A DNA stretch of 38,062 bases from Candidatus Saccharimonadota bacterium (lineage in GTDB: Bacteria > Patescibacteriota > Saccharimonadia > Saccharimonadales > Saccharimonadaceae), in assembly GCA_017447485.1 (NCBI GenBank), contig JAFSNI010000013.1:1-38062 (forward strand), read 5' to 3'. Both the position numbers and the translations under genes were made by a program. Below, piece by piece: positions 22,173 to 38,062 of the stretch. Position 1 is the stretch's first letter. Every line of letters begins with the position of its first letter. Below the pieces are notes generated by a model that saw only the letters and a list, made by a program, of their open reading frames with translations, had not been told where the DNA came from and did no database searches.

Positions 22173-23222
22173 CTATTTCAATACGCACCGCACCGCAAAG
22201 CCGCTTCCTACTGCCGAGCTCGCTGCGCTGTAATTCATACTATACGCTAAATTGTCTGAAGTTGTAATCGTCGAGGCAGAAAGCTCGCTCGAAGTCGGCA
22301 ACCGCCAGCCCGCCGGGCAAATATCTTCGCTCGCCGCCGTTGTGTCTTCCGCTTCGCAAACCGTTCCCGCTGAAACGTTACAGTAATCATATAACCCGCT
22401 CGAAATATTTTCTACCGTATATTCCCCGTAAGAGAAGTTCGAATCCACTGACTCAATTTCAGCGTTATTTGCAATCACTAAATTCTGCGTCATCCAAACC
22501 ACACCGCTGCTTAATTTCGTAATTTGATACGAAGCGTCATTACGGTTATCTTCTAACGTGTAAGTTGCGCCCGCGACCATTGACGAAACTACTGAAGCTT
22601 TATTTGCCGAAGACATCGCGTAAAACTCTTGCATCGTTGTCACCTTATCAATCGAATCCGCTTCCACATTTCCAACCAACGCAAAGTTAATCACATTCTT
22701 ATATTCACCCGAGGCCTGCGTCGAAGCCGCCTTCGCGCCAATCGCAAAGCTCACCGTTGACCCGCCCGCCGCGCTCGTACTCAAAACTTCCGCCGGCGTG
22801 CTGCTTGTATAATATGGCAACCCATAATAAGCATCGACATTATTTTTCGCCCAACCCCAAGTATTATCGCTAAGTGAAGTTAACGCCGTTCCCGCATTTA
22901 CCGCCACGCTCGTAAACGTCGCTTCACCGTTCACTAGACTATTATTTAAATAAGTATCGCCGTCACCCGCCGTCGCTAACAGCTTATATCCATAAGTGTT
23001 GTTCGAACTTACCGTCAAGGTAATGTTCGAGCTCTTTGCCGCGTTCCCTGGCGTTAAATCTTCAATCGAAATTTTTGCATCTGAAAGCGTTAGACCAATC
23101 GTTGGGTTAAAAGAGAAATAAATATCCACTTCTTCTTGCGCCGTCAAAGCACTCGCACCTTGCACTGCTACAATCCCCCCAAGCATTACCCCTATACCAC
23201 ATAATATATGTTTAGCCTTCAT
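22173..23222 (-). CDS. Secreted protein with C-terminal FISUMP (C-lectin-like) domain
   Basis: A 349-residue exported protein. The signal peptide is about 1-26 (ILCGIGVMLGGIVAVQGASA). A beta-rich domain of about 30-190 (LTVSSNNTYGYKLLATAG) resembles repeat modules of Saccharibacterial surface proteins. A FISUMP domain (Fibrobacter succinogenes major paralogous domain, TIGR02145-like) covers about 210-349, with VVWMTQNLVI, EDICPAGWRLPTSSEL and a terminal GSGFAVRCV. DGR target proteins often carry this domain, and the template repeat at 37087-37262 translates to the same ending, GFSVRCV. However, the DNA of this C terminus does not match that template, so this is not its variable target. A weaker -10, TGcTAAACT, lies six bases before the ATG. 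Confidence 0.85.
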   Translation of the reverse strand: MKAKHILCGIGVMLGGIVAVQGASALTAQEEVDIYFSFNPTIGLTLSDAKISIEDLTPGNAAKSSNITLTVSSNNTYGYKLLATAGDGDTYLNNSLVNGEATFTSVAVNAGTALTSLSDNTWGWAKNNVDAYYGLPYYTSSTPAEVLSTSAAGGSTVSFAIGAKAASTQASGEYKNVINFALVGNVEADSIDKVTTMQEFYAMSSANKASVVSSMVAGATYTLEDNRNDASYQITKLSSGVVWMTQNLVIANNAEIESVDSNFSYGEYTVENISSGLYDYCNVSAGTVCEAEDTTAASEDICPAGWRLPTSSELSASTITTSDNLAYSMNYSAASSAVGSGFAVRCVLK

Positions 23223-36794: not shown

Positions 36795-36809
36795 TGATAC
36801 AATTATATT
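36795..36809 (+). promoter_or_regulatory. Candidate promoter of the DGR template RNA
   Basis: An extended -10, TGaTACAAT (36795-36803), is followed by a second AT box, TATATT (36804-36809). It points toward the template repeat, back-to-back with the ribosomal operon promoter. The same TGnTACAAT form occurs before the 985-aa gene at 14818. Confidence 0.5.
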
Positions 36810-37086
36810 GTGGTTATGGCGTTTAATGGCGACCGTAATTGCTCCACTTTAATTCATCGCCATTCGCGCACCTTAACAACCAAACGAGAGAACAAAGAAC
36901 GTACTTTGCCGCAAGGTAGAGTATTCATCGGTTCGGACGCCTACGGTCGTCCGCGCTTTCAAAACTGTTCTTTCCTGTCGGAAATTGCAATGCCATTTAC
37001 GTATTGGCTCCTCGTTGAAAACGTGAAACTGACTGTAGCAAAAACCTATGAGGTTGCTTTCCCTGCCCTATCGTCGCCCCTCTCCG

Positions 37087-37262
37087 GCAACTTCAACGAT
37101 AGCTCAGCCAACAATCAGGGTAGCAACGGCAACTTCTGGTCTTCTACTTACAACAGTGCCACGAATATGTACAACCTGAACGTCAATGCGACGAATGTCA
37201 ATCCGCAGAATAACAACAATCGCAACAACGGGTTCTCGGTGCGCTGCGTGTATGATGGGTCC
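37087..37262 (+). repeat. DGR template repeat (TR)
   Basis: In frame it reads as a FISUMP/C-lectin-like end: GNFNDSSANNQGSNGNFWSS, a stretch of alternating Asn, then NNRNNGFSVRCV. About 19 of 60 residues are Asn, nearly all AAC or AAT. Such codons are typical of DGR templates, because A-directed mutagenesis at their first two bases reaches many amino acids without creating a stop. Scaffold residues (FWSS, GFSVRCV) use A-poor codons, as expected. The A-poor 3' end (37230-37258) would correspond to the initiation region for mutagenic homing. Edges are set by eye; the variable copy lies outside the window. Confidence 0.85.
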
Positions 37263-37285
37263 TAGGCTTCCGGTTTCCGGTTCCT

Positions 37286-37346
37286 GCCCCTCCGTTCTCT
37301 CATCAAGGTTAAAACATATCCATAGTGGCTCAAAAAGGAGAGGGGC
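37286..37346 (+). promoter_or_regulatory. Hairpin downstream of the template repeat
   Basis: The 7-bp stem gcccctc/gaggggc encloses about 47 nt. Just upstream is a tandem ttccggt repeat (37268-37282). It may end the template RNA or help form the priming structure used by DGR reverse transcriptases. No T-run follows, so it is not a standard terminator. Confidence 0.4.
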
Positions 37347-37363
37347 CCATAATGAATGTATCT

Positions 37364-38062
37364 TTAACGTTTCCAGCCGTAACGCTCAAAAATTTTCGCT
37401 TGCGCCTTAAACGCATCCATATGGCACATCATCCCAAGATACGACGTAACCGACTCTAAACTTCCCCGCCCTTTTTCTAGTTCATATGCCGACCGCGAAA
37501 AGTTTCGCATCAGTCTTTTTCCTGGCAACACCGCTCCGTCTCGCACCACCGCGCCGAGAAACGGCACTCCTTGCCACGTGCCAATCACGCGTGTCTTTTT
37601 TGGGTTCATCGCCATCCCATATCCTTGCATAAACGATCCAATCGCTTTAACATCTAGCAAAGCCTGTTCCAGTTCATCTTCCGTCACCACAATATAAAAA
37701 TCATCCACATACCGCCCGTAATGTTTATAACCTAAATCAAACATAATAAACCGGTCTAAAACGTCTAAATAGATGTTCGAGAAAAACTGCGATGTCAAAT
37801 TTCCAATCACCATGCCTTGACCTGGCGGCTGGCAAAACAAACTCTTGTCTTCCGGCAACCCCCGCCAATCGCTATACGAACCTTGAATACTCACCCCCCT
37901 CACCGGATCATCAAAAATCACCTCATGAATCGCGTGTTTTAAAACCTGGTATCTTTTGCCTTTATTCCCAACAAACTGCTGATCTAATCCCCACATCACC
38001 CGCTTATACAAAATATCGCGTTTAATGTGCATGAAATATCCCGAGATATCCATTTTGATCAC
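37364..38062 (-). CDS. DGR-type reverse transcriptase, 5' end outside window
   Basis: At least 233 residues of an RNA-directed DNA polymerase; the N-terminal part (fingers and the early motifs) lies beyond the right edge. Visible: the motif A region KMDISGYF with its catalytic Asp, then GQGMVIGNLTSQFFSNIYLD with IGNLTSQ (37787-37807), the form typical of DGR and related group II-like reverse transcriptases. The active-site YVDD follows at 37700-37711, then GMAMNPKKTRV and VPFLGAVV. The C terminus is a short thumb with a SYLGMM segment and no maturase or endonuclease domain, so it is not a group II intron enzyme. With the template repeat 100 bases away and converging, the DGR assignment is strong. 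No Avd-like accessory gene is visible; it could lie outside the window. Confidence 0.9.
   Translation of the reverse strand: MIKMDISGYFMHIKRDILYKRVMWGLDQQFVGNKGKRYQVLKHAIHEVIFDDPVRGVSIQGSYSDWRGLPEDKSLFCQPPGQGMVIGNLTSQFFSNIYLDVLDRFIMFDLGYKHYGRYVDDFYIVVTEDELEQALLDVKAIGSFMQGYGMAMNPKKTRVIGTWQGVPFLGAVVRDGAVLPGKRLMRNFSRSAYELEKGRGSLESVTSYLGMMCHMDAFKAQAKIFERYGWKR

Follow-up and report, generated by a model that had tools for sequence, protein, structure and literature searches.

Diversity-generating retroelements (DGRs) introduce targeted mutations, changing particular positions of a protein. In the DGR of Bordetella BPP-1 (mtd-avd-TR-brt), the template repeat (TR) and the VR differ specifically at adenines, the VR sits at the 3′ end of a target gene that encodes a lectin-fold protein, the two repeats have a common 3′ tail, and a hairpin is found downstream of the VR in the targets (PMC3240598). 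Antisense templates are a known, rare form (PMC3521204, PMC6642488), the inverted DGRs of group 4 of Schillinger 2012 comprising three gammaproteobacterial cases in which TR, VR and target all lie opposite the reverse transcriptase (RT) gene (PMC3521204). Trans targets of DGRs are also known, and Thiohalocapsa PB-PSB1 has trans-acting or incomplete loci without an RT of their own (PMC10907252); the authors of another study state that their own method does not detect remote targets (PMC8144416). Within the phylum of the locus described here, other Patescibacteria carry canonical DGRs with the same RT family (phrog_1423) and adenine-specific repeats.

The locus lies at the end of a 38,062-nt stretch of DNA, the window, which corresponds to bases 1-38062 of the 113,474-nt contig C8, contig and window coordinates being identical. 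The source genome was assembled as 612 kb in 24 contigs with a completeness of 87%, and the nearest relatives of its RT1 are nearly all from Candidatus Saccharibacteria, many of ruminant-gut origin. The RT1 gene (37364-38521, minus strand, 385 aa) is cut by the window end, with the C-terminal part inside (37364-38062) and the remainder running up to C8:38521. The IGNLTSQ and YVDD motifs reported in a first-pass annotation of the window are present in this minus-strand ORF, and the RT1 start and target gene, which it had placed beyond the window, were both recovered further along contig C8. Upstream of RT1 on the same strand are a two-domain accessory gene of Avd type (38521-39501, 326 aa) and a FISUMP/C-type-lectin target gene (39587-41077, 496 aa); the reading frames of all three are intact. 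TR1 lies on the plus strand, opposite to target, accessory and RT1 and convergent with the RT1 stop, and its alignment to VR1 (C8:39546-39777, minus strand, 1.5 kb past the window end) extends from 37075 to ~37301. The annotation had described an Asn-codon-rich repeat ending in GFSVRCV at 37087-37262, of which the place held and the extent was superseded by the alignment. The gap between the TR1 end and the RT1 stop (37302-37363, plus strand) stands in place of the long BPP-1 spacer, and the region 5′ of TR1 (36795-37074, plus strand) is the expected site of a template promoter. An ORF at 36810-37265 that contains TR1 probably does not represent a gene, as the 93 codons that stay open in frame ahead of the template have no counterpart in other templates, the median opening being 16 codons across 70 TRs. 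As the annotation had it, a ribosomal protein operon adjoins the locus, with the L3 and L4 genes at its head; it was silent on the antisense placement of TR1, the two-domain accessory, and the second and third RTs and TR/VR pairs of the genome.

Compared with BPP-1, the locus is alike in its RT and predicted Avd fold, its adenine-specific TR-to-VR differences, the common 3′ tail, and a VR that ends a target gene for a protein with a predicted lectin fold; after VR1 there is also a candidate counterpart of the BPP-1 hairpin. Unlike in BPP-1, the template is on the opposite strand, 3′ of the RT and without a long template-RT spacer, the accessory has an extra N-terminal domain, and the repeat is ~226 nt as against ~120-150 nt.

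A search for a near-identical second copy differing at template adenines, as the first-pass annotation had foreseen, recovered VR1. TR1 and VR1 are 91% identical over 232 nt with 20 mismatches, 19 of which are at template adenines (hypergeometric p = 3e-12); no mismatch coincides with an A in VR1. The sole non-adenine mismatch (37304) falls at the edge of the match, and outside adenines the repeats are identical over ~225 nt. The repeat starts within the last coding part of the target gene and extends ~40 nt past the stop codon, where the pyrimidine-rich, IMH-like 3′ tail of TR1 (37262-37301, plus strand) is identical in VR1. The coding changes in VR1 fall at template Asn codons (by eye), and VR1 covers the end of the target's Fib_succ_major/FISUMP match in a profile search. 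The target N-terminus resembles a signal peptide (by eye); the protein is probably secreted, and diversification of surface proteins by this element is plausible.

The components, layout and adenine-specific pattern of a DGR are present at the locus, and we put the probability that it is a genuine DGR at about 93%. Its expression, complex formation and biological role we infer as follows. The template RNA would be transcribed from the plus strand across 37075-37301 and, given the strand layout, separately from the minus-strand operon of target, accessory and RT1. RT1 and the Avd-type accessory would copy this template and misread its adenines, and the cDNA would take the place of the VR in the 3′-terminal part of the target gene, with homing guided, by analogy with BPP-1, by the common 3′ tail and the GC-rich hairpin downstream of the VR. 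The product would probably be a secreted protein with a C-terminal FISUMP/C-type-lectin domain variable at Asn codons, which could plausibly make contact with a host cell or some other surface. In bacteria that depend on a host, the targets can be regarded as candidate contact proteins.

A search of the whole genome yielded three TR/VR pairs, with 19/20, 24/24 and 19/20 mismatches at A in cassettes 1, 2 and 3, and three RTs. Cassette 2 (C8:104481-108774) has the layout of cassette 1. The third pair (TR3, C8:72588-72827; VR3, C8:73297-73536; both minus strand) is flanked by its target and a phosphoglycerate kinase gene, and the genes around it include no RT, while RT3 and its accessory gene (C5:6446-8498) have no detectable template in their 15-kb contig. 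RT3 and its accessory may act in trans on TR3/VR3 as a split DGR, a possibility that we rate at somewhat less than even. The four RTs closest to RT3 own templates that rank 2, 3, 4 and 8 among those nearest TR3, but these four templates are mutually related, which makes the ranking weak, and the similarity profile of TR3, considered as a pointer to its RT, was rejected on finding that it correlates with none of the three RTs. RT1 or RT2 could serve TR3 instead, or the locus could have lost an RT of its own. Like the PB-PSB1 loci, this one lacks its own RT; unlike them, it keeps its own template beside the VR, and the genome holds a separate RT and accessory without a template. Together, the template-less RT and the RT-less template would make trans action testable.

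Several other observations concern target-like proteins. First, the window encodes one at 22173-23222 (minus strand) with a partial FISUMP match and the ending GFAVRCVLK, for which no template was found; it is apparently a static paralogue of the targets that undergo diversification. Second, a target paralogue at C17:46248-47573 (plus strand, locus L023) has an end that matches the VR domain profile, with no template in the genome. Third, some genomes of the same genus, 700-1100 kb in size (G505, G550, G514, G522 and G548), each contain between 12 and 30 matches for the target of cassette 3; two of them (G514 and G522) are without a phrog_1423 RT match. The paralogues in G505 and G550 were considered as a large array of remote targets and rejected as such, clean pairs occurring solely beside an RT among the stretches fetched; a further VR in G505 (C4) has 21/28 mismatches at A and is uncertain.

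It is improbable that the DGR of cassette 1 was formerly active and is now frozen, its adenine-specific differences being a fossil. VR1 is unchanged in a near-identical contig (L024, 7 differences in 3615 nt), as such decay would have it, but L024 may simply be the same strain, and for its near-identity and unchanged VR it was rejected as an independent VR allele. The intact frames of RT1, accessory and target also speak against decay, as does the identity of TR1 and VR1 outside adenines, which recent homing predicts. L024 is filed under a Clostridia bin and is probably mis-binned.

RT1 was set apart from retrons and group II introns by profile scores. It matches the PHROG family phrog_1423 at 1.5e-70, a family annotated simply as "reverse transcriptase", and a search of PDB sequences gave a single match at E ≤ 1e-3, the BPP-1 DGR RT (8ub7, E 3e-16), in agreement with the DGR-type RT proposed at first pass. 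That RT1 comes from a retron or a group II intron, with the repeats a product of chance or ordinary duplication, is next to impossible and, as far as sequence can tell, is already refuted by the repeat pattern, which recurs in 68 relatives; RT1 does match general RT profiles weakly, group II intron maturase and retron models included, but these two kinds of model score far beneath their cut-offs.

The genuine DGR that we favor belongs to a lineage with a characteristic architecture. A script seeking repeat pairs with an A bias was applied to 80 RT loci, nearly all from Saccharibacteria, and detected a pair in 68. Of the 1550 mismatches in these pairs, 1452 lay at a template A, a total that is partly built in since the script demands at least 75% of mismatches at A. 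The strand and position of the TR were not built into the script: the TR was antisense to the RT and 3′ of it in 63/68 loci, with a median TR-to-RT gap of 57 nt and a gap within ~105 nt in 59 of the 63. The same layout recurs in six further loci, taken from three genomes of the genus, though four of them (L162-L165) sit on contigs equal in length to contigs of the 80-locus set and probably duplicate loci in it. Elsewhere in the phylum, in contrast, the TR was on the RT strand and 5′ in 35/38 loci, usually ~400 nt away, and an antisense template 3′ of the RT was seen in 1/38 (63/68 vs 1/38, Fisher p 6e-22 with loci counted as independent, which related loci are not). Repeats are 226 nt long in the Saccharibacteria lineage versus a median of 122.5 nt elsewhere in the phylum. 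The convergent TR looks derived in this lineage, since 14 loci from other genera of the same order differ (seven same-strand 5′, five same-strand 3′ and two antisense 5′). Two loci from another genus of the same family (L147 and L148) have a different inverted layout, with the TR antisense and 5′ of the RT.

The VR was upstream in the RT orientation in 52/68 loci, so that, unlike in group 4, most loci have only their TR inverted and this arrangement is the norm across the lineage; TR and RT on different strands are what the two have in common. VR and TR were both on the strand opposite the RT in 11/68 loci. No fewer than 8 changes on the RT tree are required to account for these 11 loci, so the VR orientation appears to flip often; the convergent TR occurs across the whole tree. 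A published scan that reads the RT strand alone would miss such elements by design (PMC3521204). With the long same-strand BPP-1 spacer absent, this flipped, convergent lineage is a natural experiment on the RNA parts required by the RT-Avd complex. We found neither a description of this Saccharibacteria DGR layout nor a MutS-like Avd fusion in the literature searched, a search that had Paul 2017 (the main CPR survey) and the 2018 NAR survey outside it; the novelty of the lineage-wide layout and of the accessory is provisional.

Signals in the RNA and DNA were also sought. Base-pairing between the spacer and the 3′ end of the TR was not supported (mean z 0.18, 43 loci), the spacer consensus of seven close relatives had no predicted pairs, and synonymous sites in the RT 3′ end revealed no constraint of the kind expected from an antisense RNA element. 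An Rfam search returned no match at E ≤ 1, and no sigma-70-like promoter was found on the template strand at 36795-37074. A GC-rich hairpin follows VR1 at 39508-39536. Across 71 pairs, hairpins were stronger after the VR than after the TR (mean z 2.2 vs 0.75, Wilcoxon p 0.005), with a clear hairpin after the VR missing in many relatives, and TR ends were pyrimidine-rich in many relatives (by eye).

An ORF of at least 90 aa occupies the accessory position in 77/80 loci. The AlphaFold2 model of the accessory (pLDDT 91) predicts an Avd four-helix bundle at residues 215-326, superposing on BPP-1 Avd (8ub7) with Z 14.2 and 2.3 Å over 107 residues; sequence profiles did not recognize this Avd domain. 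The bundle is preceded by an N-terminal alpha/beta domain in which K, E, N, S and D residues are invariant across 61 aligned members; by sequence it matches no Pfam or PDB family. A likeness to MutS domain I was noted from the sequence pattern ahead of any structure search. With this domain modelled alone (pLDDT 95.5), VIA placed bacterial and human MutS chains, aligned at domain I, among the top hits with a weak Z of 5.4, which falls under the tool's level for more than a common arrangement, and GFRP was tied at 5.3. Foldseek gave no significant match for the domain, and the mismatch-probing Phe-x-Glu motif of MutS was not seen in it by eye. Pfam MutS_I was not found in the source genome or 19 relatives and was present in 11/14 control genomes. 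Conceivably, in this Saccharibacteria lineage the template RNA came to be transcribed independently and convergently, and Avd acquired a MutS-domain-I-like module that recognizes mismatched or heteroduplex DNA in homing, in hosts where no MutS was found; we regard this combined scenario as speculative and rather unlikely. The HTH_3 profile matched 5/62 accessory proteins, and from a reading of the sequences these are the members at L042, L044, L049, L050 and L052, with an added N-terminal Cro/C1-type helix-turn-helix; these accessory proteins are perhaps self-regulating.
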